Of a stretch of 64,000 nucleotides of DNA, positions 1-18,373 are shown one piece after another; position 1 is the stretch's first letter; each line of letters begins with the position of its first letter. Below the pieces are notes generated by a model. The model saw nothing but the letters and a program-made list of their open reading frames with translations. It searched no databases and was not told the origin of the DNA. Source of the stretch: Treponema sp. (GTDB lineage: Bacteria; Spirochaetota; Spirochaetia; Treponematales; Treponemataceae); assembly GCA_017469785.1 (NCBI GenBank), contig JAFUFU010000045.1:146284-210283 (forward strand), given 5' to 3'. The position numbers were made by a program, and so were the translations under genes.

Positions 1-131
1 AATTTTTGGAGATATTTAAACTGACTTAAAAATTAAGGATCTTTTTCAAAAAAAATGCAAGAAATTTCGTTTTTGTAACAAAACTAGACGGAAATAGTTA
101 CAATCCGGTGCGAATTTTTTACAATTATTTG

Positions 132-160
132 TTGACCTCGGAAAATCCAAGTGGTAAAGT
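132..160 (+). promoter_or_regulatory. sigma70-type promoter of the left OMP operon
   Basis: A -35 box TTGACC (132-137) and a -10 box TAAAGT (155-160) are separated by exactly 17 bases. Transcription would start near 167 and give a leader of about 62 bases. The promoter lies outside the inverted repeat that starts at 188, so it would stay in place if the segment 188-9992 inverted. I found no comparable promoter before the mirror operon at 9951. Confidence 0.7.
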
Positions 161-170
161 GTTAGCCAAA

Positions 171-203
171 GGAAATTAAAAAAACCGTTGGTTTAAAATT
201 TCC
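171..203 (+). promoter_or_regulatory. leader hairpin at the left inversion boundary
   Basis: GGAAATT (171-177) pairs with AATTTCC (197-203), and AAACC (182-186) pairs with GGTTT (190-194), around a GTT loop. Only the right arm is shared with the mirror operon; the left arm is unique to this side. It may be a leader structure, or the dyad of a serine-recombinase crossover site, as hix sites also have AAACC and GGTTT arms around a short core. Confidence 0.45.
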
Positions 204-310
204 AATTAAAAAAGGAGGATTTTTTCCTATGAAAAAAATCGTATCAGTGCTGTCTGTTGCTGCATTGACCCTTTCAGCTGTCTTCGCGGCAGATGTTTCT
301 TTGAATTACA
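188..310 (+). repeat. left arm of 123-bp perfect inverted repeat
   Basis: This stretch is identical, in reverse complement, to 9870-9992. It covers the end of the leader, the ribosome binding site, the start codon, the signal peptide and the first mature residues of gene A. The identity begins exactly at TTGG, preceded by CCG on this side. Confidence 0.9.
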
Positions 311-1569
311 GACTCGGTGGAAGTTTGTATTCAGAAGAAAACACCAAGAAGATTGCAGCTGACGGATCGGAAACAGCTACACAGACGCGCGAAGCTCTTA
401 ACCTCGAAGGTTACGGAGACTCAGGAATTGGAGACCTCAAATTCACGGCGATGAATGACTTCGCGGGATTTGTGCTCAAGGTCAATATTAATGATAGTGA
501 TGCTTACGAAACAAGAGAGGTCAGCGAATACTACGGCTGGCTGAATTTCTCAAACATTCAGGTAACTGCTGGTAAATGGGACAGCCGCTACGTTGGTCTT
601 CTCACTGATGATGCAGGCGAATGGGAAAACAACGAGTATGCACGCTACAAACCTGGTGTTATCGGCGGTAAATACGCTTTCGATATCGACAACCTCACAA
701 AGGTAAGAACGTCAGCAGGTGATTGGGAGCAGCGTCTCGGTACAGCAGTCGCTTACACAAACCATCCAAACGAGGACTCATACTTCATGGTTAAGGGTGT
801 GCTCTTCGACAGCGATTGGGGCTCAACACTCCGCTTGGACAGCGATCGCGCATACGGAGATGATTACGCTGTTGGTAACGGCGACCTCAGCTTCTTCTCT
901 GGATTTGCAGGTGAAGTTGCATTCCGCACAGCTGCATTCGACATCAACTTCGTTGCAAAGTCAATGTATCGTGACGAACTGGGCTTGGGAGCATTCTTCC
1001 GCACAATCGGCGATAAATCAAACCTCTTGTTCGGTCTTTCTGCCGGCTTGGATCTGGCAGAACACAAAGACGCTAATGGCGATAAACCCGACCACAACTA
1101 CCGCGAGTTTGCATTTGACTTCCGCGGTCGATTCAAGCTCTCTGAGCAGCTCACGCTCACTACAATGAACAACCTTTCTGCCCTTAACGAGGCAAAAGCT
1201 AAAAACCAGGACTACGATGAAATGGACTTCCATCTCTGGGATATGGTAAGCCTCGCTTATCAGGCAAACGAGAAAGTGCTCGCTCAGCTCACTCTTGAGA
1301 CTGAATGTGACCTTCTCAAAATTCATGCAAACAGCGATAACGATGGAAATGAACTTGACGGCCCATTCTCACAGGGTGGTTTCACAATCACCGTTGTTCC
1401 GGGCGTCACATATTCACTTAACGAAAATGCTACTATCACAGCAGGTGTAGCCGTTGAATGGTACAACATTGGTGCCTCACCGGCTTATCAGGATAGCTGG
1501 AAGGGGGACGATAAGGACCATGCCACTTCAACAATCCAGATTCCTGTTGTGTTCAAAGTAGATCTGTAA
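229..1569 (+). CDS. outer membrane beta-barrel-like surface protein, paralogue A (left)
   Basis: This 446-residue secreted protein has a signal peptide ending near Phe-Ala-Ala (residues 19-21). The body alternates short hydrophobic and polar stretches rich in Tyr, Gly, Asp and Asn, with turns such as EYYGWLNF, as in porin-like barrels. The barrel call is inferred from composition, length and signal peptide; I do not recognise a named family. A strong GGAGG ribosome site precedes ATG at 229. It is the first gene of a three-gene operon behind the promoter at 132-160, with 22 bases to gene B. Its paralogue A' (8590-9951, minus) has the same signal peptide and long shared blocks. The two differ in the region around residues 30-60, around residue 290, and in a loop around residues 365-385, as expected of surface loops. 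Confidence 0.75.
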   Translation: MKKIVSVLSVAALTLSAVFAADVSLNYRLGGSLYSEENTKKIAADGSETATQTREALNLEGYGDSGIGDLKFTAMNDFAGFVLKVNINDSDAYETREVSEYYGWLNFSNIQVTAGKWDSRYVGLLTDDAGEWENNEYARYKPGVIGGKYAFDIDNLTKVRTSAGDWEQRLGTAVAYTNHPNEDSYFMVKGVLFDSDWGSTLRLDSDRAYGDDYAVGNGDLSFFSGFAGEVAFRTAAFDINFVAKSMYRDELGLGAFFRTIGDKSNLLFGLSAGLDLAEHKDANGDKPDHNYREFAFDFRGRFKLSEQLTLTTMNNLSALNEAKAKNQDYDEMDFHLWDMVSLAYQANEKVLAQLTLETECDLLKIHANSDNDGNELDGPFSQGGFTITVVPGVTYSLNENATITAGVAVEWYNIGASPAYQDSWKGDDKDHATSTIQIPVVFKVDL

Positions 1570-1625
1570 TGGTGTAGGAGGAAAATAGATTATGAAAAAG
1601 ATAATTACGGCTCTGACTGTTACAG
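1563..1625 (+). repeat. second inverted-repeat block (A/B junction, left)
   Basis: These 63 bases are a perfect reverse complement of 8534-8596. They cover the last two codons of gene A, the spacer with GGAGG, and the first 34 bases of gene B. The gene B bodies diverge right after the block. Confidence 0.85.
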
Positions 1626-2770
1626 CTTTGGCTTTCTCTGCAGCTTTCGCAGATGTGGCACTTGAATTCACACAGAATGCTTATATCCTCTCCGACAAGG
1701 CGGTTGGTGCTAACAACACAGGAACTCTTGACTTGTTCACCGGCTACAAAGGATATGATACCCCGCAATCGGGACAGACTATCACCGGCAAATCTTCGGT
1801 AGGCAAAGACGGAGTTACCGAAGGAAATCTCAAATTCACTGCAAAAACAAAGGTTGCAGGTGTTGAATTTACAGTAAAGCCAACGCTTAACAATAGCGGA
1901 AACACCATCGTATGGAGCACTTACTACGGATGGGCGAAATTTTTTGAAGGTGCCATGGAACTCCGCGCTGGTCGATGGGAATCTCGCACGGTAAACCGAT
2001 ATACGTCTTATCAGGGAAAAATCCCGGGCACATTCTACGAGCGATACAAGCCAGGAATCGGGGTAAACAAAGCCATTGGCGCAGATATCAACAATCTTAC
2101 CCTTAAAGCAAAGGCCGCTCAGCTCAAATATTCAATGGACGGTGGCGTTTGGGTCACAGGCGCACTTATCAAGAGTGCATACGATGCTGCTTCTGGTATT
2201 AACTCACAGTCTGGCTGGGCAGCAGAATTCGGAACACCGATTGGCGAAGGCTCAAAGCTCATCATTGACTTCAAGAACTTGAAGCAGGATCAGTATTCTC
2301 TGGCCGCTTTCTTTGAGAACACAACACTCAAGGAAGGGCTTGATTTCCAGGCAGGATTCATCTTTGACCGCACTGATGCAACAACAAACAACATGATGTG
2401 GGCAGGTGATTTCCGCGCGAGCTACGAGCTTGCTGATAATGTGACGCTCATCACAATGAATAACCTTACCTATGACGGCACAACAAGTGTAGGGGGAGTC
2501 TACCGACTGTGGGACATGGCTAGCCTTGCAATCATGGCTTCAGACGCAGCGATACTCAACCTCACCGTTCACTGGGAGCATGACGACCTCTTGAACGCTT
2601 ACGATAATGAAGACAACGCAATCGGACAGATTGATTTCTCTCCGATGATCAAGTATCAGGTTGGAAAAGGCGTTGACATCACGGGCGGCGTGCATATCGC
2701 CGTTTTGGGCTGGAGCAAACCGAATACGACTCTGTTCAGCATTCCGTTCGTGCTTCATGTGTCAATGTAA
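1592..2770 (+). CDS. outer membrane beta-barrel-like surface protein, paralogue B (left)
   Basis: This 392-residue protein has a signal peptide (MKKIITALTVTALAFSAAFA) and a barrel-like body with repeated aromatic strands such as YYGWAKFFEG. No named family is recognised. It follows gene A by 22 bases and precedes gene C by 32, so all three are probably co-transcribed. The paralogue B' (7455-8567, minus, 370 residues) shares the start region and C-terminal strands, including the ending LHVSM. The first 60 mature residues and an internal segment near residues 120-190 differ in length and sequence. This is the most diverged of the three pairs, so it may be the most exposed or most selected antigen; that is inference. 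Confidence 0.72.
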   Translation: MKKIITALTVTALAFSAAFADVALEFTQNAYILSDKAVGANNTGTLDLFTGYKGYDTPQSGQTITGKSSVGKDGVTEGNLKFTAKTKVAGVEFTVKPTLNNSGNTIVWSTYYGWAKFFEGAMELRAGRWESRTVNRYTSYQGKIPGTFYERYKPGIGVNKAIGADINNLTLKAKAAQLKYSMDGGVWVTGALIKSAYDAASGINSQSGWAAEFGTPIGEGSKLIIDFKNLKQDQYSLAAFFENTTLKEGLDFQAGFIFDRTDATTNNMMWAGDFRASYELADNVTLITMNNLTYDGTTSVGGVYRLWDMASLAIMASDAAILNLTVHWEHDDLLNAYDNEDNAIGQIDFSPMIKYQVGKGVDITGGVHIAVLGWSKPNTTLFSIPFVLHVSM

Positions 2771-2853
2771 TGTAGCGTAAGGATAATGGAGGAAAAAAGA
2801 TAATGAAAAAGATTATTAGTACTTTAGCCCTTGCTACATTGGCATTTGGCTCA
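2753..2853 (+). repeat. third inverted-repeat block (B/C junction, left)
   Basis: These 101 bases are a perfect reverse complement of the corresponding stretch on the right (about 7372-7472). The block covers the end of gene B, the spacer and the signal-peptide codons of gene C. After one mismatch at 2854 the match continues to 2899. Confidence 0.85.
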
Positions 2854-4107
2854 CTGTTTGCCGATGTTACATTCACGACAAACTATAGAACTCGCATGGC
2901 TGCTTTCAGCCGTGTAATGAATGCTGACGATTGGACTGCAACAGCTAAGGCAGACCGCTTCAACTCATATCTCTTCGCTCAGCGTGGTTATGATTCTGCA
3001 AGCGACGACTTCAAGATTGAGGTTGCAAACGATTTCGGCGGAGCTGGCGTGCGAATCGACCCAAGTCTCGGCGACAATCAGGATACAAGCGATGACCGAA
3101 ATACCCTCGCAGAATACTATGGCTATGTGAACCTCGGTGCAATCAAAATCACCGCCGGCCTCATTGATGGAATCAGCAACGGTACCTACCGTCTCACTGA
3201 CGAAGTCGGAGCTTCAAACCTCTGCGGTGAGTCAACTGATGCTTATGCGCCAGGCTCAATGCACGGAGCAGCAATCAGCTTCAAGGCTGACGACATCACT
3301 TATTTTGATGGTGAAAGTCGCCCGGTTGGTATGATTACCTATACCGGTGATTTCGGCGACACAGTTCTCACTGCTGATTTAGTTGCCGCAGCAATCGACA
3401 ACAACAATGGTTCAGCCACATGGGATGGCTCAGAAATGCACGCAGCCCTCGGTGCTCGCGTTGACTTGAAAATCCCTGCTGCTGACATTCAGTTTGTCTT
3501 TAAACAGCACACAAACACAAGTGCTGTTTCTAAGCGCTCTGTCGCCTTGCACGTGGCTCCGGCTATCAGCGAGAATTTGAGCCTTGCCCTCGGTGGTGCT
3601 GCCGGCTTCTATAACGGCGACCTCAGCGAGTTCAACGCCGACATCCGCTTTATGTTCAAGAGTGGCAACATGAGCATCACTTCTCTGAACACAATCGGCT
3701 TTGTCACTGACAACGGCGTGAGCAATGGCACATCAGTTGGATATGACACGCACGTTGGTCTTGTATTCGTAGACTCAACTGGAGCAAGTGCATCGCAGGA
3801 TAACCGAGCATCTCAGTCATCAATGTGGAACCTCTTGGCATTCCGCATGGAAGCATCTGAGAAGCTTGCCGTATTCTGCAACATCGGCGATATCATCGGA
3901 TTCAACGCTGCTCACAAAGAAATTGGTGACTACGGAATGGAGTTCTTCCTGGCTCCTGGTTTCTAGTTCTACGCAACAAAGAACTGTTCAATCACATCAG
4001 CTCTCCGAGTTGGTGTGAGCAACCTTCTTATGGACGACGATACCTACACAGACATCGAGCCTGCTTACGGCATCCTCGTTCCTGTAGTGCTCCGCGTACA
4101 GCTCTAA
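2803..4107 (+). pseudogene. outer membrane protein paralogue C (left), with in-frame TAG
   Basis: The reading frame opens at ATG 2803 with a typical signal peptide and stops at TAG 3964-3966 after 387 residues. The same frame then continues with 46 sense codons to TAA 4105-4107. Those codons match the C-terminus of paralogue C' (6115-7422), where the stop position is a Gln codon (CAG). One C-to-T change therefore explains the stop. Outer membrane barrels need their last strand for assembly, so the short product is probably misassembled or inactive. The otherwise intact frame suggests a recent mutation. A sequencing error, suppression, or repair from C' by recombination are alternatives. It closes the operon before the terminator at 4166-4206. 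Confidence 0.8.
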
Positions 4108-4119
4108 TCTGATATGGCA

Positions 4120-4157
4120 ATTCCGAGACAAGGACAAGCTTCCTGCTCGGGATTAGC
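4120..4157 (+). other. hairpin after the left operon
   Basis: ATTCCGAG pairs with CTCGGGAT around an AAGGA/TTCCT inner stem. A related structure (GATTCCGAG with CTCAGAATC) lies after the mirror operon at 6069-6103, so the 3' ends of both operons keep a similar fold although the sequences differ. A role in mRNA stability is inferred. Confidence 0.4.
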
Positions 4158-4165
4158 AAACAGGG

Positions 4166-4206
4166 AAACGAAGCCCGGGAATCTTTCTCAGGCTTCGTTT
4201 TGTTTT
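4166..4206 (+). terminator. intrinsic terminator of the left OMP operon
   Basis: A perfect 10-bp stem, AAACGAAGCC (4166-4175) with GGCTTCGTTT (4191-4200), is followed by a T-rich run to 4206. Confidence 0.85.
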
Positions 4207-4312
4207 AAAACTCTTTAGCATTTATCACTTCATTTTCTGTTGATTTGCAATTTTCCGACCTCAGTCTTCTGTAACTCGGTTCTGTCTGGTTTGTTTTAAT
4301 TTTAGTCGCATC

Positions 4313-4341
4313 TTGTTGAAGTCGTCTCTATAGCATATAAT
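4313..4341 (+). promoter_or_regulatory. promoter of the lipoprotein gene
   Basis: TTGTTG (4313-4318), a 17-base spacer and TATAAT (4336-4341) precede the gene at 4380. An AAGGAG site lies just before ATG. Confidence 0.65.
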
Positions 4342-4379
4342 AGAAGAAAATCCTAGATGCATTAGACAAGGAGAAAAAA

Positions 4380-5246
4380 ATGAAAAAAAATGTTGCATTG
4401 CTTCCGGTTTTTGCGGGAATCGCTGTGCTTTTTGCAAGTTGTGGTTCTACAAAAATACCCTTGCAGGAACACTCGCCGGTAGCTGTCATTACAATAACTG
4501 GAAATGGCCAGGTTCCGTGGCTTTCTGACGGAAGTGACGAAACTGAAGACGGTACTTCGGACGGCATCCTCTCAACCATGGTCAATAAGCTCATTGACGG
4601 TGACAATCCAGAAATCGTAACTTCAGTTGACCGCCTCGACTACGCCAACGATTCAATCTTCCAGATTGTTCCGGAACTTACCGGCGCAGAATTCCTTCCC
4701 AAGGATAAATTCATTCAGTCAGAAGCCTATGATGAGCTTGACTCAACCTATTTCAACCTGCTTTCTTCAGTAAAAACTGCTACAGGTTACAAGGATTTGA
4801 CTGCCCTCGGTTCAAAACGTCTCCGAATGCTTCTTGAAGGCACTGGTGCAAAATCGGGCATTTTCTTTGATTACACTTTCCAGAAAAAACTTCTCAAGGG
4901 AAACAAATGGAACGGCTATCTCTGCGGTCTGGTCACTCTCAAGGCAAAAGTCGTAAATGAGCGCGGCAAAGTTCTCCTCAACAAGACATTTGTTGCACAG
5001 TCTTCTGAGAAAATCCGAATTTCCAGCCATAAATACGACAAAGACGCATTCGTCGCAAGCCTGAACGAAGCCATTGATTCTACAATCCGTATGTTCTCCA
5101 TGGAATTTGCAGGTGTAGACGAAGGCACTGAGGCTCTTGAAATCGATGATTCGGTTCAAGGAGATGCAATCGCTCTTCCAGTCCGCACTGAACAGAAATC
5201 AGAAGTTTCCGAAGAGACTGCAGAATCAGAGTCGGTTACAGAATAA
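4380..5246 (+). CDS. putative lipoprotein of unknown function in the invertible locus
   Basis: The 288-residue product starts with a lipoprotein signal and lipobox ending LFASC (Cys21), so it should be lipid-anchored in the envelope. I do not recognise the family. The middle contains a mixed alpha/beta segment (residues 60-240) with a possible sheet core near WNGYLCGLVTLKAKVV, and the C-terminus (from residue 250) is acidic and low-complexity. It has its own promoter and terminator and lies between the mirrored operons next to the recombinase. It would flip with the locus but stay linked to its promoter. A role in export or assembly of the variable proteins is possible but unsupported by any motif. 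Confidence 0.7.
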   Translation: MKKNVALLPVFAGIAVLFASCGSTKIPLQEHSPVAVITITGNGQVPWLSDGSDETEDGTSDGILSTMVNKLIDGDNPEIVTSVDRLDYANDSIFQIVPELTGAEFLPKDKFIQSEAYDELDSTYFNLLSSVKTATGYKDLTALGSKRLRMLLEGTGAKSGIFFDYTFQKKLLKGNKWNGYLCGLVTLKAKVVNERGKVLLNKTFVAQSSEKIRISSHKYDKDAFVASLNEAIDSTIRMFSMEFAGVDEGTEALEIDDSVQGDAIALPVRTEQKSEVSEETAESESVTE

Positions 5247-5268
5247 AATAATCAAAAATTCAATCGAA

Positions 5269-5316
5269 ATCCGTCTGATTGTGAAAACGTCCTCATAGTC
5301 AGACGGATTTTTTATT
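5269..5316. terminator. bidirectional terminator between lipoprotein and recombinase
   Basis: AATCCGTCTGA (5269-5279) pairs with TCAGACGGATT (5299-5309), followed by a T run on plus. On minus the arm runs into A/T-rich sequence. It separates two convergent genes and overlaps the recombinase stop codon. Confidence 0.8.
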
Positions 5317-5914
5317 TAAAAAATATCCGGGCAAGATGCTTGTTCAGAGTTATCCATGAAACTCCAAGTTCTGCCGCAAGCGAACGCTTGCTCCTGCCGA
5401 TTATAATCTGCTGTTTTATGTAATCATCGTAAGGGGAAAGTTTATACGAATCTGACTTCCGGCCTGCGCGTCGTCCGATGTGTTTTCCATCAAGCCGGGC
5501 GCGTTGCAAGCCCTGTTTTGTCCTTTCTGAAATCAATTGGCGCTCTATTTCCGCTGACAATCCGAAAGCAAAAGCCAGCACCTTTGACTGAATATCATCT
5601 CCAAGGCGGTAGTTGTCTTTTATAGTCCAGACTTTTATGTTTCTTTCGAGGAAATATTGGAGCACATTCATAATCATAATAAGGGAACGGCCGAAGCGGG
5701 AAATTTCCGTGCAGATTATCAAATCACCCTCCTTGCTTTGCATCATGAGCTCCTTGCCAAGCTTCCTCGTTTCCGGGCGTTTTGTCCCGCTGATTTTTTC
5801 CTCAATCCATTTGTCGATTATAATTCCATTCTGACGAGCGAATTTTTCTATTTCCAGCTGCTGATTCTCTAGATTTTGGTGGGCTGTTGAGACTCTGATA
5901 TAACCATAAACCAT
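5312..5914 (-). CDS. serine site-specific recombinase, Mpi-like DNA invertase
   Basis: The 200-residue protein is a complete small serine recombinase. The N-terminal catalytic domain begins YGYIRVS with nucleophile Ser9 and Arg7. It has the SRFGRS motif (72-77), the long E helix (about 112-140) and a C-terminal helix-turn-helix (about 172-196). The stretch YRLGDDIQSKVLAFAFGLS is what I recall from the Bacteroides fragilis master invertase Mpi group, which flips promoters of surface polysaccharide loci. The start at 5914 is chosen because GGAGGAA lies 6 bases upstream and the motif begins at residue 3; an upstream in-frame extension to 6067 is hydrophobic and unlike the family. Lying between inverted operons, it is the obvious candidate to invert them. 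Tn3-type resolvases share the fold, but this size and sequence favour an invertase. Confidence 0.9.
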   Translation of the reverse strand: MVYGYIRVSTAHQNLENQQLEIEKFARQNGIIIDKWIEEKISGTKRPETRKLGKELMMQSKEGDLIICTEISRFGRSLIMIMNVLQYFLERNIKVWTIKDNYRLGDDIQSKVLAFAFGLSAEIERQLISERTKQGLQRARLDGKHIGRRAGRKSDSYKLSPYDDYIKQQIIIGRSKRSLAAELGVSWITLNKHLARIFFK

Positions 5915-6063
5915 AAATAATTCCTCCACACATATTTGTACGGAGAAAATCATGATTAAATTGAGCGTTTTTTTTGATAATTTGACGAGTAAAAAAAGTG
6001 CACTGCCAAAGATTATCAGAAACCACTGGAGTGCACTTAAAATCAATTTCAGATTTTTGTCTT

Positions 6064-6114
6064 TCACTGATTCCGAGCCATGGAAAATCCAGTGACTCAG
6101 AATCTAGCGCTAGA
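6064..6114 (-). terminator. hairpins and 12-bp palindrome after the right OMP operon
   Basis: A perfect palindrome TCTAGCGCTAGA (6103-6114) abuts the stop codon of gene C'. Beyond it on minus, CACTGGATTTTCC and GGAATCAGTG form a bulged hairpin without a clear T run. It may end or stabilise the operon transcript. The palindrome could also be a recombinase site, but no matching copy follows the left operon. Confidence 0.4.
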
Positions 6115-7422
6115 CTAGAGCTTGACGCGGAGCACTACAGGAACGAGGATGCCGTAAGCAGGCTCGATATCCTTGTAAGTTTCGTCGTCCATAAGAAGGT
6201 TGCTCACGCCAACTCGGAGAGCTGTTGAGATTGAGCAATTCTTTGTTGCGTAGAACTGGAAGCCAGGAGCTACGAAGAACTCCATTCCATAGTCACCAAT
6301 TTCTTTGTGAGCAGCGTTGAAGCCGATGACATCGCCGATGTTGCAGAATACTGCGAGCTTCTCAGATGCTTCCAGTCGGAATGCCAAGAGGTTCCACATT
6401 GATGACTGAGATACAGCGTTTGTCTGTCCATTCACAACACCATCCTTGTTAAGGTACAAAAGACCTACGTGCGTGTCATATCCGACAGGATTGTAGTTCG
6501 ATACACCTGCATCTGTGATGAATCCGATTGTGTTCAAAGAAGTGATGCTGATGTTGCCGGTCTTGAATACGAAGCGGATGTCAGCGTTGAACTCAGTAAG
6601 CTCACCGTTGTAGAAACCTGTTGCTCCACCGAATGCCAGGCTGATGTTCTCGTTGATAGCCGGAGCTACGTGCAAGGCGATAGAACGAGCTGAAACATCT
6701 GTAGTGTTTACGTGCTGCTTGAATACAAGCTGAATTCCTGCTGCAGGGAGTTTTGCATTTACTCGGAAACCGAGAGCTGAATGCATCTTTGAGCCATCCC
6801 ATGTAGCGGTAGAATTCAAAATGCTTTCGTCTGTGTGAACATCAATAGCTGCGGCAACGAGGTCTGCAGTGATTTTTGTGTCACCGAAGTCTCCGTTGTA
6901 AGTGAGCATACCAACCGGGCGATTTGCACCGTCGAAATAAGCGATATCATCAGCCTGGAAGGTGATTGCTGCTCCGTGCATTGAGCCTGGCGCATAAGCA
7001 TCTGTTGATTCTCCGCCGAGATTTGACTTTCCAACCTCATCTGTAAGGCGGTACTCATCGTTAGAGATTCCGTCAATGAGACCGGCTGTAAGCGTTACAG
7101 AACCGATTGTTGCGTAGCCATAGTATTCTACGAATGAATCATTACCAGCTTCTGCATTTGGATCTACACGGACACCTGCTCCGCCAAAGTCGTTTCCGAC
7201 TTCGACTTTGAAAGTATCGCTTGCTGAACCGTAAGCATTATGCTTGAACAGGTATGATGTAAATTTCTCAGCCTGTGTATCGGTATCGGTATATCCATCT
7301 GCGTTCATTACACGGCTGAAACCAACCATGCGAGTTCTATAGTTTGTCGTGAATGTAACATCGGCAAACACTGAGCCAAATGCCAATGTAGCAAGGGCTA
7401 AAGTACTAATAATCTTTTTCAT
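6115..7422 (-). CDS. outer membrane beta-barrel-like surface protein, paralogue C' (right)
   Basis: This is the intact 435-residue counterpart of the interrupted gene C (2803-4107). It has the same signal peptide, and most of the mature sequence matches closely. The main differences are in the first 50 mature residues and short insertions near residues 95, 190 and 310. It ends VLRVKL where the left copy would end VLRVQL after readthrough. The GGAGG site and spacer match the left copy exactly. It is the last gene of the minus-strand operon A'-B'-C'. With no promoter seen upstream of that operon it may be silent in this orientation. Confidence 0.75.
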   Translation of the reverse strand: MKKIISTLALATLAFGSVFADVTFTTNYRTRMVGFSRVMNADGYTDTDTQAEKFTSYLFKHNAYGSASDTFKVEVGNDFGGAGVRVDPNAEAGNDSFVEYYGYATIGSVTLTAGLIDGISNDEYRLTDEVGKSNLGGESTDAYAPGSMHGAAITFQADDIAYFDGANRPVGMLTYNGDFGDTKITADLVAAAIDVHTDESILNSTATWDGSKMHSALGFRVNAKLPAAGIQLVFKQHVNTTDVSARSIALHVAPAINENISLAFGGATGFYNGELTEFNADIRFVFKTGNISITSLNTIGFITDAGVSNYNPVGYDTHVGLLYLNKDGVVNGQTNAVSQSSMWNLLAFRLEASEKLAVFCNIGDVIGFNAAHKEIGDYGMEFFVAPGFQFYATKNCSISTALRVGVSNLLMDDETYKDIEPAYGILVPVVLRVKL

Positions 7423-7472
7423 TATCTTTTTTCCTCCATTATCCTTACGCTACATTACATTGACACATGAAG
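7372..7472 (-). repeat. third inverted-repeat block (B'/C' junction, right)
   Basis: Perfect reverse-complement partner of 2753-2853. It covers the end of B', the spacer and the signal-peptide codons of C'. Confidence 0.8.
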
Positions 7473-8567
7473 AATGAACGGAACTTCAAAGTTCATTGTA
7501 TCCGGACTTCTTTCATCCCAGCTGGAAGTTCTGATGTTAAGACCTCCAGTAAGGTCAACACCCTTTCCAACCTGATACTTTACCATTGGGGCAAAATCCA
7601 AAGTTGCTTCTCGTCCAGTTGCTGCAACTTTCATCAAGTCGTTGTGTTCCCAATGAACGATAAAGAGTGCTGTGAGCTGGTCAGAAAGCTCTGTAGACAG
7701 GCAGACCATATCCCAAAGGTTGTAAACCGGGACAGTACCCAAGGTATTGTAAGTAAGGTTATTCATCGTTGCGAGACGGAGATTGTCTGCAAGATCATAT
7801 TCACCACGGAAATCAATTGCCCAAGAGAAGCTGCCAGTAGCCTCTCGGCCGAGTGAGAATCCAGCTGTGAAATCAAGGCCTTCTTTGAGGGTTGAGTTTT
7901 CAACAAAGGCAGCGACTGAATACTGATCCTGTTTGAAGTTTTTGAAGTCTACGATGAGACGTGAGCCTTCGCCAACTGAAGTACCGAATTCAGCAGCCCA
8001 ACCAGCTTTCTGCTGGGTTCCAGATGTTGTGTCGTAGTCACCCTGATGGAGAACGCCTGTTACCCAAGCGCCACCGTCCATATTGTAGGTAATCTGAGCG
8101 GCAAGCTGTTTGTCTGTAAGACGGTTTGAATCTGCGGCTGCAGATGTATTGCCGAGGCCTTTTACGACACCCATCTTATAGCGCTCATACTGAGTTCCCT
8201 GAAGTTTTCCGCCGTTTGCGAATCGCTTTGCAGTGCGTGCTTCCCACTGACCAGCCTGGAGCTTCATTGCGCCGTCGAAGAAGTTTGTCCAACCGACATA
8301 TTCTGATGCCTTGACTGCATCTGGATTGCCATCCTGCAAACTCGGTTTTACTGTGAGCCATACACCGGCATTCTTATTCTTGATGGTGAATTTCCAGTTT
8401 CCGTTAGCGGTTGCATTACCATCAAATTTTCCTGAATATCCGTTGAAATCAAGGTTTCCATTATCGCCGAGCAGAACTGCATACTGCGTGAATTCGAGAG
8501 ACACATCAGCAAATGCCGCAGCGAGAGTCAAAACTGTAACAGTCAGAGCCGTAATTATCTTTTTCAT
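7455..8567 (-). CDS. outer membrane beta-barrel-like surface protein, paralogue B' (right)
   Basis: The 370-residue protein has the same first 14 residues as gene B apart from one Ala-to-Val change. Its body has clear differences in residues 25-60 and 115-170 and a matching C-terminal half ending LHVSM. Its barrel nature is inferred from the signal peptide, aromatic strands and paralogy. It sits 22 bases after A' and 32 before C', the same spacing as on the left, so the operon was duplicated as a unit. Confidence 0.72.
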   Translation of the reverse strand: MKKIITALTVTVLTLAAAFADVSLEFTQYAVLLGDNGNLDFNGYSGKFDGNATANGNWKFTIKNKNAGVWLTVKPSLQDGNPDAVKASEYVGWTNFFDGAMKLQAGQWEARTAKRFANGGKLQGTQYERYKMGVVKGLGNTSAAADSNRLTDKQLAAQITYNMDGGAWVTGVLHQGDYDTTSGTQQKAGWAAEFGTSVGEGSRLIVDFKNFKQDQYSVAAFVENSTLKEGLDFTAGFSLGREATGSFSWAIDFRGEYDLADNLRLATMNNLTYNTLGTVPVYNLWDMVCLSTELSDQLTALFIVHWEHNDLMKVAATGREATLDFAPMVKYQVGKGVDLTGGLNIRTSSWDERSPDTMNFEVPFILHVSM

Positions 8568-8596
8568 AATCTATTTTCCTCCTACACCATTACAGA
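8534..8596 (-). repeat. second inverted-repeat block (A'/B' junction, right)
   Basis: Perfect 63-base reverse-complement partner of 1563-1625. Confidence 0.85.
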
Positions 8597-9951
8597 GCTA
8601 CTTTGAATACGACTGGAACCTGAATTGTGGTCGTTGTCGTATGTACAGAATCTCTGAACTTCGGTGAAGCACCGATTTCAGCCCATTCAATTGCAACTCC
8701 GGCAGTGAGTGTAGCGTTTTCATTGAATGAATATGTTACACCCGGTGTAACGGTGATTGTGAAACCACCTGTAGCACTAGCTCCGAAAGTCGTTGAACCT
8801 TTTGCGCCGTTGTTAGTTGCTGTCCAATCATCTCCAGGCTCTGTGTTTTCAGCACGAATCAAGAGAGGGTCACACTCGCTTTCAACAGTGAGCTGTGCAA
8901 GAACTTTCTCGTTTGCCTGATAAGCGATGCTTACCATGTCCCAAAGGTGGAAGTCCATTTCATCGTAGTCCTGGTCTTTAGCTTTTGCATTGTTAAGAAC
9001 AGAAAGGTTGTTCATTGTGGTGAGCGTGAGCTTCTCAGAGAGCTTGAATCGACCGCGGAAGTCAAATGCAAACTCGCGGTAGTTGCTGTCGTTTACGTCC
9101 TCTGTATCAGACAGATCCAAACCGGCAGAAAGACCGAACAAGAGGCTTGTGTCTCCGATTGTGCGGAAGAATACTCCCAAGCCCAGTTCGTCACGATACA
9201 TTGACTTTGCAGCGAAGTTGATGTCGAATGCAGCTGTGCGGAATGCAACTTCACCTGCGAATCCAGAGAAGAAGTTGAGATCGCCATTACCAACAGCGTA
9301 ATCATCTCCGTATGTGCGGTCGCTGTCAGTGCGGAGTGTTGAACCCCAGTCGCTGTCAACAAGAACGCCCTTAATCATGAAGTATGTGTCATCATCCGGA
9401 CGGATTGTGTAAGCAAGTGCTGTTGAAAGGCGCTGCTCCCAGTCAGTTTCTCCTGCGGTGTTTGTAAATCTCACTTGCGTGAGGTTGTCGATATCGTAAG
9501 CGTATTTACCGCCGATAACACCCGGTTTGTAGCGAGCGAACTCATTGTCTTCCCAGTTTCCACCGTCGTCATCAAGCAGAGCCACATAGCGGCTTGTCCA
9601 TTTGCCCGAAGTAAGCTGGAGACCAGCGAAGTTGAGCCAACCGTAGTATGTGTCAACGTCAAAAGCAGTGTAAGCAGTATTTACTTTAGGGTTTAATGTG
9701 AGTGCAAAGCCTGCAAAATCATTCTTTGCCGTGAATTCAAGATCACCCGACGGCGTTGAAGAGTAACCGTTCAGGTCAAGAAATGTGCGTGTTGAACTGA
9801 GCTCTGGATCGCCACCTTCAGTTTTAATCTCCTTGGTATTTGTTTCTTTGTAGAGCGTTCCCGCCATTTTGTAATTCAAAGAAACATCTGCCGCGAAGAC
9901 AGCTGAAAGGGTCAATGCAGCAACAGACAGCACTGATACGATTTTTTTCAT
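8590..9951 (-). CDS. outer membrane beta-barrel-like surface protein, paralogue A' (right)
   Basis: The 453-residue product has a signal peptide identical to gene A and long identical blocks, for example around GDDYAVGNGDL and NFFSGFAGEVAFRTAAFDIN. It differs in discrete segments near residues 27-60, 85-100, 285 and 370-395, and the last of these is longer than in A. This block-wise pattern fits surface loops on a conserved barrel frame. It is the first gene of the right operon. The only DNA between it and the phosphofructokinase gene (9952-10201) holds a promoter facing the other way, so it looks promoterless in the present orientation. Confidence 0.75.
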   Translation of the reverse strand: MKKIVSVLSVAALTLSAVFAADVSLNYKMAGTLYKETNTKEIKTEGGDPELSSTRTFLDLNGYSSTPSGDLEFTAKNDFAGFALTLNPKVNTAYTAFDVDTYYGWLNFAGLQLTSGKWTSRYVALLDDDGGNWEDNEFARYKPGVIGGKYAYDIDNLTQVRFTNTAGETDWEQRLSTALAYTIRPDDDTYFMIKGVLVDSDWGSTLRTDSDRTYGDDYAVGNGDLNFFSGFAGEVAFRTAAFDINFAAKSMYRDELGLGVFFRTIGDTSLLFGLSAGLDLSDTEDVNDSNYREFAFDFRGRFKLSEKLTLTTMNNLSVLNNAKAKDQDYDEMDFHLWDMVSIAYQANEKVLAQLTVESECDPLLIRAENTEPGDDWTATNNGAKGSTTFGASATGGFTITVTPGVTYSFNENATLTAGVAIEWAEIGASPKFRDSVHTTTTTIQVPVVFKVAL

Positions 9952-9992
9952 AGGAAAAAATCCTCCTTTTTTAATTGGAAATTTTAAACCAA
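9870..9992 (-). repeat. right arm of 123-bp perfect inverted repeat
   Basis: Reverse complement of 188-310. On minus the identity begins at TTGG, preceded by CC, so the boundary reads CC-TT-GG. The unrelated sequence beyond it leads into the phosphofructokinase promoter. Confidence 0.9.
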
Positions 9993-10126
9993 GGATTGAT
10001 GTGCATAATGCGTTTTGAGCTTGCTTTTTCGGATTTTACAGGTGAGTGAATTTTGTCTTATTTTAGGTCGGAAAAGTCTAATTGCTTTAAATCCGCGTGA
10101 AAGTACAAAACTGTGTCATTTTTGTA

Positions 10127-10155
10127 TTGAAAAATCGGTGAATTAAGCATAAAAT
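10127..10155 (+). promoter_or_regulatory. promoter of the phosphofructokinase gene
   Basis: TTGAAA (10127-10132), a 17-base spacer and TAAAAT (10150-10155) lie 46 bases before the start codon. An AAGGAG site is at 10189-10194. Confidence 0.7.
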
Positions 10156-10201
10156 ACTTGATAACTCATGCGTATTCGCGCTGCTTTTAAGGAGCATTCC
10201 T

Positions 10202-11605
10202 ATGGAAGAAAAATTCGATTTTACTATTGAACAGCTTGGTGAGTGCAAAGTTCCATCACCTATCGAGCTTTCAAAAGAACATGGTGAATTCCGTGCCAAC
10301 TATGTCAAGGATACTTCCTTTGTTCGCTATAAGGTAAATGTTTTTGATGCAAACTCAACAGAAAATGAAAGGACCAAAGGCAATCTCATGCAGAAAGCCG
10401 GTCCTCGTGAATTCATCTATTTTAACCCGGCTCACGTAAATGCTGGTATTTGTACTTGTGGTGGTCTTTGCCCTGGTCTCAACGACGTAATCCGCGCTGT
10501 CGTCCGCTGTCTTTGGTATCGCTATGGCGTCAAACGAATTCGCGGCTTCCGCTATGGTTTCAAGGGCTTCTTCCCGGAGCAGGGCTACGATACAATCGAG
10601 CTTACTCCAAAAGTTGTAGACGATATTCACAAAAATGGCGGTACATTCCTTGGTACAAGCCGTGGTGGCGGCAACCGTGTCTCTGATATCGTTGATGCGG
10701 TTGAGTCACTCAGCATGAACATGCTTTTCATCGTTGGTGGTGACGGAACTCAGCGTGGTGCCCTCGATATCGCCCGTGAAATCGAAAAACGCGGCCTCAA
10801 GGTTGCCGTTGTCGGCATTCCGAAAACCGTTGATAACGATCTTCTCTTCATTGACCGCTCATTTGGCTTTGAAACAGCTGTCGAAAAGGCTCGTCAGGCT
10901 GTTGACGCAATCCACATGGAAGCCGAGTCGCAGATTAATGGTATCGGTGTCGTCAAGCTCATGGGCCGTGAGTCAGGCTTTATTGCTACTTCCACTACGC
11001 TTGCAAGCCACGAGACGAATTTCTGTCTTATCCCGGAAGTTCCATTCGACATGGACGGTCCGAACGGATTCCTCTCGCACCTTGAGAAGCGTCTTGAAAA
11101 GCGTGGCCATGCGGTTATCATCGTTGCGGAGGGTGCTGGTCAGGAGCATTTGCAGTCAACAAACGAAACAGACGCTTCTGGCAACAAAAAGCTTTCAGAT
11201 ATCGGCGTGTTCCTCTGCAACAAAATCAATGAATACTTCGCAAACAAGCATATTCATGTCAATCTCAAATATGTTGACCCAAGTTATCAGGTTCGTTCTT
11301 CTGTCACAACGGCAAACGATTCAGTCTACTGTGAGCGTCTCGGCAACAACGCAGTTCATGCGGCTATGGCAGGCAAGACAAAGTGCGTCGTTGGTCTCGT
11401 TCATGACAAATATGTCATCATCCCGACTGAGATGGTAACGCGTAAGCGAAACAAGGTTGATCCAGAAGGCGCATTGTGGCGCGATGCTCTTGATGCAACT
11501 GGTCAGCCGATTCTCATGGTGAACAATATTCAGTCGGTCATTGACCACATGAAGAAGAACGCCGAAGAAGAAGAAAAAAAGGCACAGGAGAAGGCTGGTA
11601 AATAA
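10202..11605 (+). CDS. 6-phosphofructokinase, plant-like long subgroup
   Basis: The enzyme phosphorylates fructose 6-phosphate to the 1,6-bisphosphate in glycolysis. The 467-residue chain shows the family motifs in order: [15 protein letters not shown] (87-101), GGDGTQRGA (179-187), PKTVDND (207-213) with the catalytic Asp, and MGRESGFIA near residue 255. GGDG with Gly at the fourth position favours ATP as donor, because pyrophosphate enzymes usually have GGDD. The Lys of PKTVDND is shared by pyrophosphate enzymes and by plant and trypanosome ATP enzymes. The donor is therefore probably ATP but not settled. It is monocistronic, with its own promoter and terminator, just outside the invertible locus. 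Confidence 0.9.
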
Positions 11606-11620
11606 TCCGGCCCCATAACA

Positions 11621-11660
11621 AAAAAGCTGACTGCTTTGATAAGCGGTCAGCTTTTTTTAT
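11621..11660 (+). terminator. terminator of the phosphofructokinase gene
   Basis: AGCTGACTGCTT (11625-11636) pairs with AAGCGGTCAGCT (11641-11652), followed by seven T. A preceding A run lets it serve the opposite strand as well. Confidence 0.85.
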
Positions 11661-11730
11661 GCTCCAAAACGTTAAAAGTGTAGTTTTCCCCGCGAGTGTT
11701 TCAAGGGCAAGCCATGGGACCCTTACAGGG

Positions 11731-13158
11731 CTACAGTTTGTCGATGAGCATTGAACACTTTCCGGATGGAATCGGAAGAGTTTTCTTTTTTTGGTCAAGA
11801 ATATTGATTGTGAAGTAGTAGAGCTTTTCGCTTTCCATTTGGATGCCCCAGCCACGAGGCGTTTTGTGGCTGAGAATCGTGATGAGGTTCCGTTTGAGTG
11901 AAAGCTTTTCGATACCCATAATCTCAAGGTTCGGGATAATCCAATCGACCGTTTTGCGTGGCAGGGAAATTGAAAGCCCGATGACGTTTTCAATCATGAG
12001 CGCTATGGTTGAAAGACCTATGGTAATCATGCAGTGTTTGCGAGGGAAGGATTCATCTCCTGATTTGATTGCCGGGCCTTCCTTGCAGGGCAGATAAGCT
12101 TCGTATAAATCACCCTTGCTACCGTCCGCTGGCTGCAGGCCCTCAAGCACGAAATAGAGATGGCGTATTGCACATTCGCGGGCCAAATCGTATCGCTGAT
12201 ACTTTTCGAGGCCCTTGATAACCATGAAATTGTATATTGGATATACTGAACCGTTGTAGCCTTCGCCGTCAGCGCTGAAAGTCGGGCTGTCTAAGCTGAG
12301 GGTCGGGAAGGGATGTTCTGAGCCGAATGTTTCCGGATTTGAAATGTGGGCAATAAGAGAATCCGCCTTGTCGGCGTTGGGAATTTCTGCAAGGAGAGGC
12401 CAGAAACCGGCGATTGTTTTGACAGGAAGCTGAGACCCGTTTTCGTCCAAATCGTGATAGAAACCTGTCTCTTCGTTCCACATGTATGAGTTGATTCGGG
12501 TTTTGAGGCTGAAATACATGCGCTTGTACTGAAAACTGAGTTCCTTGTCGTTGAGAATGTCACCGAGAGAACTCATATTGAGGGCGTTGATTGCGATACA
12601 TGCGTTAAAATCCACCGGATAGCAGACGTTTTCGCGCGGAGAGTTATCCATGCCACAAGCGATGGCAGGAACTGAATAGAGACCGTTCTCGCGCTTGAAA
12701 TTTGCGTCAATCCATTCCATGAATTTTTGAAGGACAGGCATGACTTCTTTGACGCGACGCTTGTTTGCAAGCTTGTGGTAGAGGTTGAATTCGGCCCACG
12801 CAAAGAGAGGAAGCCCGATTCCTTCAGGATTTCTGCTGTCAACGACCGGAGCGCCCGTTTTTAAATCGTACATCCAGCGGATTGCGCCGTTTGATTCTTG
12901 TTTTTTATAGAAATAATCGAGATTTGTTTCGGCGGCATAATTTTTGTTTGAGTATACTAAGAAAAATGTTGAAAAAATCGATTCCGCCTGATTTATGGCT
13001 AACTGAGAATCCCCAGGATGGACGAAAAAACCATCGGTTGAGACTTCATTCGTTTTGGGATCAATCCATGAATCAGAAATCCAATTCCATGTTTTGTCAT
13101 AAATATCGACAAAATCTTGATCATAAAAGTGAATCTTAGGAAAATCTTTCTTGCTCAC
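11731..13158 (-). CDS. GH63/trehalase-like (alpha/alpha)6-barrel glycosidase
   Basis: The 475-residue protein has no signal peptide and so is probably cytoplasmic. It resembles the MGH1-like/GH63 group of (alpha/alpha)6-barrel hydrolases, with segments such as GLPLFAWAEFNLY (near 117-129), PVDFNACIAINALN (near 182-195) and DGEGYNGSVYPIYNFMVIKG (near 297-316). These enzymes release glucose or mannose from alpha-linked oligosaccharides or glycosides such as mannosylglycerate or trehalose; I cannot fix the substrate. The start is a GTG at 13158 with GGAG five bases upstream, and no better ATG exists. It stands alone, convergent with phosphofructokinase. Confidence 0.65.
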   Translation of the reverse strand: MSKKDFPKIHFYDQDFVDIYDKTWNWISDSWIDPKTNEVSTDGFFVHPGDSQLAINQAESIFSTFFLVYSNKNYAAETNLDYFYKKQESNGAIRWMYDLKTGAPVVDSRNPEGIGLPLFAWAEFNLYHKLANKRRVKEVMPVLQKFMEWIDANFKRENGLYSVPAIACGMDNSPRENVCYPVDFNACIAINALNMSSLGDILNDKELSFQYKRMYFSLKTRINSYMWNEETGFYHDLDENGSQLPVKTIAGFWPLLAEIPNADKADSLIAHISNPETFGSEHPFPTLSLDSPTFSADGEGYNGSVYPIYNFMVIKGLEKYQRYDLARECAIRHLYFVLEGLQPADGSKGDLYEAYLPCKEGPAIKSGDESFPRKHCMITIGLSTIALMIENVIGLSISLPRKTVDWIIPNLEIMGIEKLSLKRNLITILSHKTPRGWGIQMESEKLYYFTINILDQKKKTLPIPSGKCSMLIDKL

Positions 13159-13290
13159 AAAAACTCCGCGTTCCCAATGGGTTGAAGATATTACACCTTT
13201 TGGGAAATCCTTTACAGTATATCATACTTTTTTAAAAATTGCGCATAATTTTAGAAAAAAAAGTGTTTTTTTACCAATTTTGGGTGGATT

Positions 13291-15039
13291 TTATCGGTAT
13301 GTCAGGCGTACGATTTCAGTTTCTGATTTATGCCTTGATTTGAGGAAAAGCGTATTTTTGTTTTCCCTGTAAATGAATCCTGATGAATTGTAAGTCTCAA
13401 AGCGAGGGGCAGAGTGGAATGAGAGACCGTAAATCTCGATTTCGTTGAAAGGCGTGATGCCACTGATAATCGCATAGTTTGTATCGCCCTTGGGGAAGGT
13501 GACTGTAATGGTTGCGACGCTGTTCTGAAGTGAATAGGTCATAGATTGCGTGCAAGTCCAGGCCCAGATAGTTCCCGCCGCATTTCTAGAAAGCACTTTA
13601 TAGTGTGGATAGAATGAATTGTTTACGAGAATCGGGTAAATATCCGTGAGTGTCATTGTATCAAGGGAGTTGACCGAGAGAATCGAGTTGATTAAGGCGT
13701 ATCCAGTTCTTGAACATTCTGCTGAATTATTGAATTCTCCCCATTGCACGAGGGCATTGCCTGTAGAAAGGGCGATGTAATTTGATACAGGTACATCTTT
13801 TTCCATGAGCGTAAGCAGGGTATCGTTGAGCACACACTTTGACTCAATGATGTTCAGGCATTTTTGCGCAGCCGGAAGAAGCAGGTCTGCAAGGTTGGAA
13901 TGGAGTGCGGATAGCTTGAGATATGTTATAAGGATTCCGCTGGCCTGAGAAAGCTTGACCTGGTCATCGGAGCTTTCAATGTTTTCAAGGAGCGTTTCCG
14001 GAATCTTGAGAAGAGAGCGAACTTTTGAACCGTCTGGAAGAATGTCCAGATATTCAGCAAGCCCTTCCACGGTGAATATTGAAAGTGAATTGTTCTCGAT
14101 GGCGTTTGAAATCATCTCTGACATATTGTTGTTGTGCATTTCCAGCGAGGGAGCCATGGCTTCAAGTGTGTTGAAATATGGTGATGACAGATAGGTGCGT
14201 TTGTTTCCCTTTTTAAAAGAGTCTGGTATGTATGCGACGGCTTCTGTATATCGCCCCTGTGAGGCAAGCTCCGCGACGTAAGCGATGGCGGCTTTTTCGG
14301 AAAGGGTTTGGTTTGTTTTTATGATGTTCGAGACTGAATCAACAACTGTTTTTCGGAATTCCCTGATATTTGTGTCGTAAGTCGATTTCTGTGCGATAAT
14401 CATGTCCGAATCGAGGGATGAAAAAGTGAATTCGACAGAAGGATCATAGGCTACGTAGTACGAGATAAAATTCTTGTCAGAAAGGAAGATTGTCGTGTCA
14501 TCAATCTGCGATGCCGTGAAGGCATAGGAAAGACTTTTTGAGTTGATAATCAGCTTCGTGCGTGTTTTATCTGTAACTGAAAAGCCGGAATTTGGTTTGT
14601 AATGCAGGTAGAGCCCGAGAGCGTCGTTTGGCAGTGCTGCTGTAATTGAAAAAGCGGCATCTGAATCGGTTCCTGTGGTTGCAAAGGTAAGGGATGTGTC
14701 ATGAGTAAAATGAAATGTATATGACAAAGCTGTTTTTTGCTCATAGGAAAGCAGAGTGAGATTTTCCTTGACCTGTGAGCCGTCCTGATTTTTAACGTAA
14801 AGCTGTGCCGGAGTCATTTCATCGGCGACAAAACTTATGCCCTTGAATGAAACCTGCAGGGAATTCTTGAGAGAAATCTCACCGCTGTCATCCTGCGATT
14901 GAGCATAGGAAAGTGAAAGGAGACCTATGTTTTTAGAAACAACGGATTCATTCCTAAATTGGAGAACAAAAATTCCGATAATTATAATACTATAAAGAAC
15001 GATAAGCCCGAATGATTTTCTGATTGGATGTCTGTACAT
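13291..15039 (-). CDS. membrane-anchored protein of unknown function
   Basis: The 582-residue protein begins with a positively charged stretch and one hydrophobic segment (about residues 10-27), a signal anchor or uncleaved signal. The remainder would be periplasmic. Residues 60-210 look like beta-rich domains with repeated Ser/Thr and hydrophobic alternation; residues 230-440 look helical and TPR-like. I do not recognise the family. It is divergent from the TPR protein gene at 15123, with only 83 bases between the starts, so the two may share regulation. Confidence 0.65.
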   Translation of the reverse strand: MYRHPIRKSFGLIVLYSIIIIGIFVLQFRNESVVSKNIGLLSLSYAQSQDDSGEISLKNSLQVSFKGISFVADEMTPAQLYVKNQDGSQVKENLTLLSYEQKTALSYTFHFTHDTSLTFATTGTDSDAAFSITAALPNDALGLYLHYKPNSGFSVTDKTRTKLIINSKSLSYAFTASQIDDTTIFLSDKNFISYYVAYDPSVEFTFSSLDSDMIIAQKSTYDTNIREFRKTVVDSVSNIIKTNQTLSEKAAIAYVAELASQGRYTEAVAYIPDSFKKGNKRTYLSSPYFNTLEAMAPSLEMHNNNMSEMISNAIENNSLSIFTVEGLAEYLDILPDGSKVRSLLKIPETLLENIESSDDQVKLSQASGILITYLKLSALHSNLADLLLPAAQKCLNIIESKCVLNDTLLTLMEKDVPVSNYIALSTGNALVQWGEFNNSAECSRTGYALINSILSVNSLDTMTLTDIYPILVNNSFYPHYKVLSRNAAGTIWAWTCTQSMTYSLQNSVATITVTFPKGDTNYAIISGITPFNEIEIYGLSFHSAPRFETYNSSGFIYRENKNTLFLKSRHKSETEIVRLTYR

Positions 15040-15122
15040 TTTATTCAGTTTATCAAACCGAGCGGAAAGTTAAAAGAGGGCAGACAAAATCGTCTGCTAA
15101 AAATCAACATAAGGGAAAAATG

Positions 15123-16475: not shown

Positions 16476-16548
16476 TTCACAATGCATAATTCATAATGCA
16501 CAATGAATAATTCTTAATGCAGAATATTGAATTGTAGTGGAGAATATT

Positions 16549-17754: not shown

Positions 17755-17771
17755 TTTTTGGCTTAATATGC

Positions 17772-17800
17772 AAAAAAATGCCCTGCGCTCTGGCAGGGCA
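17772..17800 (-). terminator. terminator of the small lipoprotein gene
   Basis: GCCCTGC (17780-17786) pairs with GCAGGGC (17793-17799). On minus the stem is followed by seven T. It lies between two convergent genes. Confidence 0.8.
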
Positions 17801-17819
17801 AAAGTCAGTTTACGACAAA

Positions 17820-18248
17820 TTATTTTTTTGTGAAGGTGAGGTTAGTATCAGGATCGGTGAAACTTCCGTTTGTAACCGCAAATGCTGCTTCGTCCTGTGG
17901 GTCTGCAACGAGTTTGTCTTCATCATTTGCTTTGTGGGTGCGCGTAATCGCAATTATGCCTGTGTTCCAATCTCCGCTCACGATTCGATATGTGCCTTTT
18001 CCGTCAACATAAGAATAGTTTGCCTCTTTGACTTTCATAATGCCTTTGTAAGTTTTATTGTCGTAAAAATTGAGCGTGTATGTACAGTTGTAAGTTGTGT
18101 CTTCGCCTGGATAGGTAAATTCAGTGACATACGCTGCGCTTACAGACGGACCATCGTCATCATCGTCGTTATCAGAACAAGCGATAAAACCGAAAGAAAG
18201 CACTGACAAAGCGAGCAGTGCCGCAAAAATGTTAAAGAACTTTTTCAT
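17820..18248 (-). CDS. small putative lipoprotein
   Basis: The 142-residue product has a signal peptide with lipobox FIACS (Cys24), then an Asp run (residues 27-32) and a single beta-rich domain with alternating Tyr/Thr strands, such as TYNCTYTLNFYDNKTYKG. It resembles small lipocalin-like or DUF-type lipoproteins common in gut bacteria, but I cannot name the family. GGAGG precedes ATG. Its promoter (18296-18323) carries a nine-base T tract in the spacer and is repeated 1.86 kb away. Confidence 0.7.
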   Translation of the reverse strand: MKKFFNIFAALLALSVLSFGFIACSDNDDDDDGPSVSAAYVTEFTYPGEDTTYNCTYTLNFYDNKTYKGIMKVKEANYSYVDGKGTYRIVSGDWNTGIIAITRTHKANDEDKLVADPQDEAAFAVTNGSFTDPDTNLTFTKK

Positions 18249-18293
18249 AGTAAGTTCCTCCTAAAAATGAAATTTGCCATCTAAGATGACCTT

Positions 18294-18323: not shown

Positions 18324-18338
18324 GGTTTCGCAGGCTCT

Positions 18339-18366: not shown

Positions 18367-18373
18367 TTTTCTC

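Follow-up and report, generated by a model that had tools for sequence, protein, structure and literature searches.

The best-known route of surface switching in spirochaetes is gene conversion, as at tprK and vlsE. In Bacteroides fragilis, the recombinase Mpi flips promoters in front of polysaccharide loci, and inversions at several sites control surface molecules (PMC4747536). For the serine invertases Hin, Gin and Cin, hix sites of 26 base pairs (bp) and the flipping of a promoter are described (PMC3798978). Among the open-licence papers that came up in searches naming Treponema or spirochaetes, none reports a DNA-inversion surface switch in Treponema, to judge by titles and the beginnings of abstracts and by part of the review PMC11868660. 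The present work concerns a window (the whole stretch of DNA analysed, 64,000 nucleotides) from a Treponema genome, in which positions 188-9992 hold two three-gene operons for predicted outer-membrane proteins (OMPs), placed in inverted orientation about a serine recombinase. The segment 188-9992 is considered likely to be a switch that inverts whole operons past a single fixed promoter.

According to this proposal, 188-9992 would be an invertible unit, and the internal Mpi-like serine recombinase would join the dyads at its two ends and flip the segment. Because the promoter is outside, next to the left site, the flip would decide which operon is expressed, that is, each flip would put one three-gene operon behind the promoter and leave the other silent. 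The crossover would fall in the tip of a hairpin at the 5' end of the mRNA, one arm coming from the promoter side and the matching arm from the cassettes. The features concerned are the following.

132..160, plus strand: promoter-like sequence TTGACC-N17-TAAAGT with a TG just ahead of its -10, lying outside the left site
171..203, plus strand: predicted 5'-mRNA hairpin, the site in its apical loop, fold -8.3 kcal/mol
182..194, plus strand: left canonical site AAACCGTTGGTTT, AAACC-GTT-GGTTT
188..310, plus strand: left copy of the perfect 123-bp inverted repeat (5' untranslated region, ribosome-binding site, signal peptide)
229..1569, plus strand: O1-left, predicted OMP, 446 amino acids (aa)
1592..2770, plus strand: O2-left, predicted OMP, 392 aa
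2803..3966, plus strand: O3-left, 387 aa, premature TAG at its end
4380..5246, plus strand: lipoprotein LIPO
5266..5311, strand not set: terminator-like hairpin in the gap between LIPO and the recombinase
5312..5914, minus strand: INV, Mpi-like serine recombinase, 200 aa
6115..7422, minus strand: O3-right, full length, 435 aa
7455..8567, minus strand: O2-right, 370 aa
8590..9951, minus strand: O1-right, 453 aa
9870..9992, minus strand: right copy of the perfect 123-bp inverted repeat
9984..9997, minus strand: right variant site AATCCTTGGTTTAA, AATCC-TT-GGTTT

The source genome (G000; genomes, contigs and loci carry the labels G, C and L) is 3.24 Mb in 63 contigs, and the window is part of contig C50. 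As the original prediction had described it, the paralogous operons face inward, 229-3966 on the plus strand and 6115-9951 on the minus strand, with the lipoprotein and serine recombinase genes in between. The two arms, 188-4110 and 6112-9992, are copies of each other in inverted orientation, with 70-96% agreement block by block, and the 12 longest inverted pairs found in 1-14000 (74-305 nucleotides, 70-96% complementarity; the best 25 of 56 pairs were listed) are without exception collinear between the arms. The predicted unit ends, 188 and 9992, are exact to the base, being given by a 100% identical 123-bp inverted repeat (188-310 and 9870-9992) which starts at the centre of the left dyad. 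The claim that the arms share junctions and differ block by block in the mature proteins is also borne out: a 60-column identity profile reads 1.00 over 230-289, where the gene starts, is 0.93-0.98 across the O2/O3 junction (2740-2919) and goes down to 0.15-0.6 in many blocks of the mature regions. Immediately outside the left end it reads 0.37-0.45, which resembles unrelated sequence under forced alignment. Left and right proteins are 69% (O1), 52% (O2) and 73% (O3) identical by BLASTP, and relatives of O1 in the source genome are confined to this locus.

Such a blockwise pattern would also be expected of a static inverted duplication, in which gene conversion keeps divergent paralogous operons partly similar and no inversion takes place at present; the source contig, unbroken at the sites, and the truncated O3-left fit this explanation too. 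However, the identity begins exactly at the dyad centre and the outer half-sites are specific to their flanks, and inverted segments are found at the same dyad in relatives. In addition, the related genome G051 has flank proteins 95% and 97% identical to those of the window, a recombinase 80%, a lipoprotein 44% and an O1-like protein only 28-31% identical, so that the site outlives the cassettes. A static duplication is therefore unlikely; fast cassettes between slow flanks would fit surface proteins that diversify at a fixed switch.

Exact searches of the source genome gave one canonical and one variant site, located at the two ends of the unit and mutually inverted; AAACCGTYGGTTT has its sole exact copy in the genome at the left site (182-194). 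In related Treponema, dyads precede OMP operons, and aligned leaders of O1-like genes (both arms of G000, G051, G018 and G013) have in common the dyad AAACC-GTY-GGTTT just before the ribosome-binding site. A scan of 196 Treponema genomes gave 65 canonical matches, spread over 43 of the genomes (22 matches for a reversed-pattern control, by hand sum of the table), and 15 variant matches in 13 genomes (control, 1). Sixty of the 65 canonical matches entered the tests of gene starts and contig ends, those at G172:C89, G231:C168, G214, G167 and G165 being omitted. A ribosome-binding site and an ATGAAR start lie within 75 bp on the same side at 36 of these 60 and on the opposite side at none (0/60); five others are too close to a contig end, and 19 fail the gene-start test, 12 of them inside predicted genes and three (G013) preceding OMP genes yet missing the rule for the ribosome-binding site. 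Moreover, 14 of the 60, five of them from G116, are within 200 bp of a contig end, against 1.5 expected if 200 contigs are assumed for the nine genomes of unrecorded contig number. Canonical sites also accompany the recombinase, occurring in 17 of 23 genomes with an INV match of at least 250 bits and in 26 of the 173 others (Fisher P 1.4e-8).

The promoter-like sequence is one-sided. Only 2.7% of shuffles of the window's upstream stretch score as high, and on the minus strand outside the right site (9998-10300) there is no promoter-like match pointing into the right operon. Among the relatives a promoter of the form TTGACN-N17-TANNNT is present at some sites, 17-28 bp upstream, and absent at others. 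Of 4000 random 70-bp windows, 8 contain this strict form, and a score of 14 is reached by 3.4% of random windows. With 14 as the cutoff, fixed only after the scores were seen, exactly one site passes in 12 of 14 multi-site genomes (34 sites), no genome has two, and G151 and G124 have none; random placement gives 6.4 one-promoter genomes on average (permutation P 0.004). Multi-site genomes are those in which two or more examined sites have the expected OMP start or a contig end there, and six of the 34 sites are too near a contig end for a visible gene (C237, C6 and C133 of G208, C177 of G122, C33:25830 of G099 and C52 of G022). G116 was counted with five sites, contig-end duplicates being merged and C71 omitted, and G208 was entered as four sites with one promoter before its three silent sites were scored, which later gave 10-13. 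The canonical site of G124 has an extended -10 (TGATATACT) that was spotted by eye and left uncounted in this exclusivity test, and second matches at G172:C89 and G231:C168 and a variant at G231:C66 were also left outside the promoter counts. In G013 the promoter is of a looser type, TTGCAA-N16-TAGAAT.

Where a site bears a promoter, its outer and inner flanks pair with each other across the dyad to form the predicted hairpin; for the window's hairpin, 2.3% of outer-flank shuffles fold as low. Over 21 such sites the outer and inner arms covary: the mean fold is -10.8 kcal/mol with a site's own arm and -6.3 kcal/mol with foreign arms, and none of 20000 permutations is as low. The own arm ranks first at nine of the 21, and at single sites 0-24% of outer-flank shuffles fold as low. 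The 21 sites include G124, whose promoter was seen by eye only, and are not independent, some species sharing arms; the same core AAACCGTTGGTTT was inserted for all, and G015 (a near copy of G115) and G122 (where the contig ends inside the inner arm) were omitted. The inner arms of silent sites were compared as well: for each of the 16 (among which three of G116's four are identical), folding is better with the promoter-side arm of the same genome than with the mean of 20 foreign arms, and for five of the 16 the own arm beats every foreign one. A point against the splitting of the hairpin comes from G162 and G208, where outer arms of silent sites likewise pair well with their inner arms; with their own core 1% of shuffles fold as low, and the pairing is also seen when the canonical core is put in.

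Single OMP genes with promoter, hairpin and dyad are found in G115, G015, G231, G171, G232 and G153 (L109, L110, L124, L129, L130 and L126, respectively). These genes would be expected if the dyad were a mere leader hairpin or regulator site of treponemal OMP genes, with the mirrored operons and the neighbouring recombinases present by accident. But silent sites retain the core and the inner arm, most of them without promoter and outer arm, and exchange at the site is seen in G116 (below), which makes this explanation highly improbable. The motif at single OMP genes with no second site seen nearby does imply that it also has a role without inversion, and the hairpin may be an older leader element that was reused as a recombination site.

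Two topologies are found. The operons are inside and the promoter outside in G000, in G051 and at C37 of G116, although neither flank of the C37 unit has a promoter by score, whereas the promoter is inside and the operons outside in G138, G133, G099 (the right-hand gene cut by the contig end) and at C23 of G116. G124 also has the promoter-inside layout, though no promoter passed the score there. The recombinase is between the two sites in G138, G133 and G124. In G051 the window's flank genes are on two contigs, with one site at each. These flank genes do not accompany the OMP locus in every genome, other genes being upstream of PFK in G208, G124, G038 and G022. The opposite orientation of LIPO and INV relative to PFK in G162 was considered as a between-species inversion and rejected as too weak, G162 having two LIPO/INV copies.

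The original prediction had named a comparison of orientation across related genomes as a check, and in G116 a site-bounded segment is present in both orientations. Up to the site, contig C71 is identical with C23 wherever the bases are unambiguous (5035 of 5035, with a further 64 being N), and past the site it matches the flipped 543-bp intersite segment, which carries the promoter, at 112 of 112 bases, against 37 of 112 for the unflipped one; the flipped match was one of nine offsets tried. Furthermore, C37 of the same genome holds a 13.5-kilobase unit with the operons inside, which is the window's topology, and the contigs stop where an inversion would branch the assembly: the end of C23 stops exactly 43 bases inward, at the divergence point of the two C37 cassettes, and that of C37 exactly 8 bases outward, at the divergence point of the two flanks. 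The contig overlaps are 119 bases, and the repeat shared by the C37 ends is 51 bases. These stops may be read as both junctions being present in the reads. In G041 a promoter-bearing flank and a silent flank lead into one shared stretch of 133 cassette bases, where each of the two contigs ends; the remainder of the cassette is absent from the bin, so that two cassettes with identical starts may be involved instead. Redundant contigs C70, C71 and C73 of G116 overlap C30, C23 and C17, which points to mixed strains or duplicated output in this bin.

Another route to inversion would be homologous exchange between the two copies of the 123-bp repeat, with the recombinase acting elsewhere, and 123 bp of perfect identity generally suffices for RecA-type exchange. 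Yet the ends of the C37 unit share only 51 bp, the C71/C23 junction falls at the dyad, and close INV relatives co-occur with the site and stand between inverted site pairs in G138, G133 and G124; homologous recombination is thus quite improbable as the route.

Several observations weigh against an active whole-operon switch. Contig C50 runs through in one orientation with no break at the sites. O3-left, within the presumed ON operon, is truncated by a TAG at 3964-3966 while its homology with O3-right extends as far as about 4107, and the canonical outer half is missing from the right site; the local unit could therefore be partly impaired. The motif also occurs at some single OMP genes that have no visible second site alongside, T. 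berlinense (G018) has one site and no promoter, and the individual promoters in the 12 one-promoter genomes have shuffle P values of 0.000-0.163, not all significant alone. A close INV without an exact canonical site is found in six of 23 genomes (G020, G036, G106, G028, G164 and G159), and the redundant contigs of the G116 bin may reflect a strain mixture or an assembly error.

The variant right site and the truncated O3-left could together mark a former inversion unit, now locked and decaying. The variant, however, recurs in four relatives: upstream of PFK, at the same place, in G162 and G122, at an OMP operon without promoter in G208, and in G124, where it and a canonical site bracket the recombinase. 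This recurrence makes decay unlikely, and the view of the right end as no more than a decayed site was rejected on the same ground; a locked unit is regarded as a rather unlikely alternative to the whole-operon switch with its fixed promoter.

The three proteins of each arm had been called outer-membrane proteins. O1-O3 are predicted to be so from their signal-peptide-like starts and from a weak match of O1 to the TDE1717 outer-membrane barrel model (22.2 bits for O1-left and 17.3 bits for O1-right, both below the curated cutoff of 135). The same model is matched at E of at most 0.1 by five of eight members of the O1 alignment, and O1-left has a single Pfam match, far under its cutoff. O2-left and O3-right match no Pfam or NCBIfam family, the six members of the O3 alignment match no Pfam family, a PDB sequence search with the O1 and O3 alignments gave no match at E of at most 1, and Rfam at its gathering threshold gave none over 1-10400.

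INV has the Pfam Resolvase catalytic domain PF00239 (E 1.6e-33, residues 2-144). It matches the NCBIfam Mpi model with 248.2 bits (E 5.8e-74), under the curated cutoff of 272 bits, so the predicted enzyme is named Mpi-like and not Mpi. A start at the GTG of a 251-aa open reading frame was rejected, as conserved homology begins at 5914 (200 aa). The source genome has no second close INV, the next match being only 33% identical with 27.6 bits. The first 13 loci listed for INV are from Treponema, apart from one from Spirochaetaceae, and several are from ruminant gut samples; INV-bearing relatives include T. berlinense ATCC BAA-909 (G018) and T. zioleckii kT3 (G028). LIPO adjoins the recombinase also in G051, G162, G208, G038 and L228. 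At L173 (G124), 8197-8778 matches only residues 36-199 of the recombinase in one frame, an apparent frameshift in that assembly.

More distant Mpi-like recombinases (54-56%) occur at L053 (T. berlinense, G018:C17, 9580-17631), L062 (G020:C4, 9660-17055) and L252 (T. saccharophilum, 9989-19477). Their neighbours are methylase-like fragments (L053 and L252 have VIGNPPYI) and, on the opposite strand, a large gene. In L053 (62 bp, 84%) and L062 (296 bp, 83%) inverted repeats link the immediate vicinity of the recombinase with the region of that large gene; this suggests invertible restriction-modification specificity. In L054 (G044, a single-contig genome) a 161-bp inverted repeat (89%, 10238-10397 and 12342-12498) beside another Mpi-like recombinase flanks a gene of 421 aa. 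A recurrent gene with starts such as MTENTRKTKSWDELTFADNFLFCKILE, which we take to be PD-(D/E)XK-like, is found within or beside units at L046 (1028-1879), L099 (6387-7337) and L171 (2682-3245).

As to the predicted whole-operon antigen switch, the shared end sites, the one-sided promoter-like sequence, the two orientations in G116 and the contig ends at its C37 unit give it good support, while flipping in this strain, catalysis by INV, exclusive transcription of one operon and a role of the proteins as surface antigens are presumed. The dyad sites, the promoter outside the unit and the 5' hairpin were no part of that prediction. The evidence tips slightly towards a mutually exclusive system, present in many species of the genus, with one promoter and half a hairpin at an expression site, one or more promoterless OMP cassettes that bring the other half, and an Mpi-like recombinase that joins them at the tip, the recombination site doubling as the functional 5' end of the mRNA and whole operons being exchanged. 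If this is true, a site-specific and reversible whole-operon switch would be another route of surface variation in gut and rumen Treponema; the junctions could be read directly from long reads, and selection of surface variants by hosts, phages and competitors would become testable. The split hairpin would be an unusual link between a recombination site and an mRNA leader.

Among known systems, the sap S-layer inversion of Campylobacter fetus and the vsa type of Mycoplasma have one expression site and several silent cassettes, as proposed here, and differ in that single genes instead of three-gene operons are exchanged and other recombination machinery is used. Hin, Gin and Cin share with INV the serine invertase type, and the half-site AAACC/GGTTT presumably resembles the hix, gix and cix half-sites, whereas the canonical site here has a 3-base centre. 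The Tsr0667 recombinase of the B. fragilis SusC/SusD shufflons is reportedly of the tyrosine type. Those shufflons are similar in that outer-membrane gene clusters are swapped by DNA inversion, and they differ in recombinase and proteins (PMC4747536); a shufflon has more than two sites and many alternatives, while the source genome has only two by exact search and G116 and G208 have more. Mpi of B. fragilis, whose model INV matches below the cutoff, also controls surface molecules by inversion, but there the promoters flip, whereas here operons would flip past a fixed outside promoter (PMC4747536). The cwpV switch of Clostridioides difficile likewise has its promoter outside the inverted segment and a leader RNA structure as part of the switch; a terminator in the OFF leader is proposed there, in contrast to a predicted 5' hairpin in the ON leader and the swapping of whole operons here (PMC2784873). 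The switching principle is known from other bacteria; its occurrence in Treponema, with cassettes of operon size, a one-promoter pattern and a 5' hairpin split between promoter side and cassette, would make this a new variant of it as far as the open-licence literature goes.

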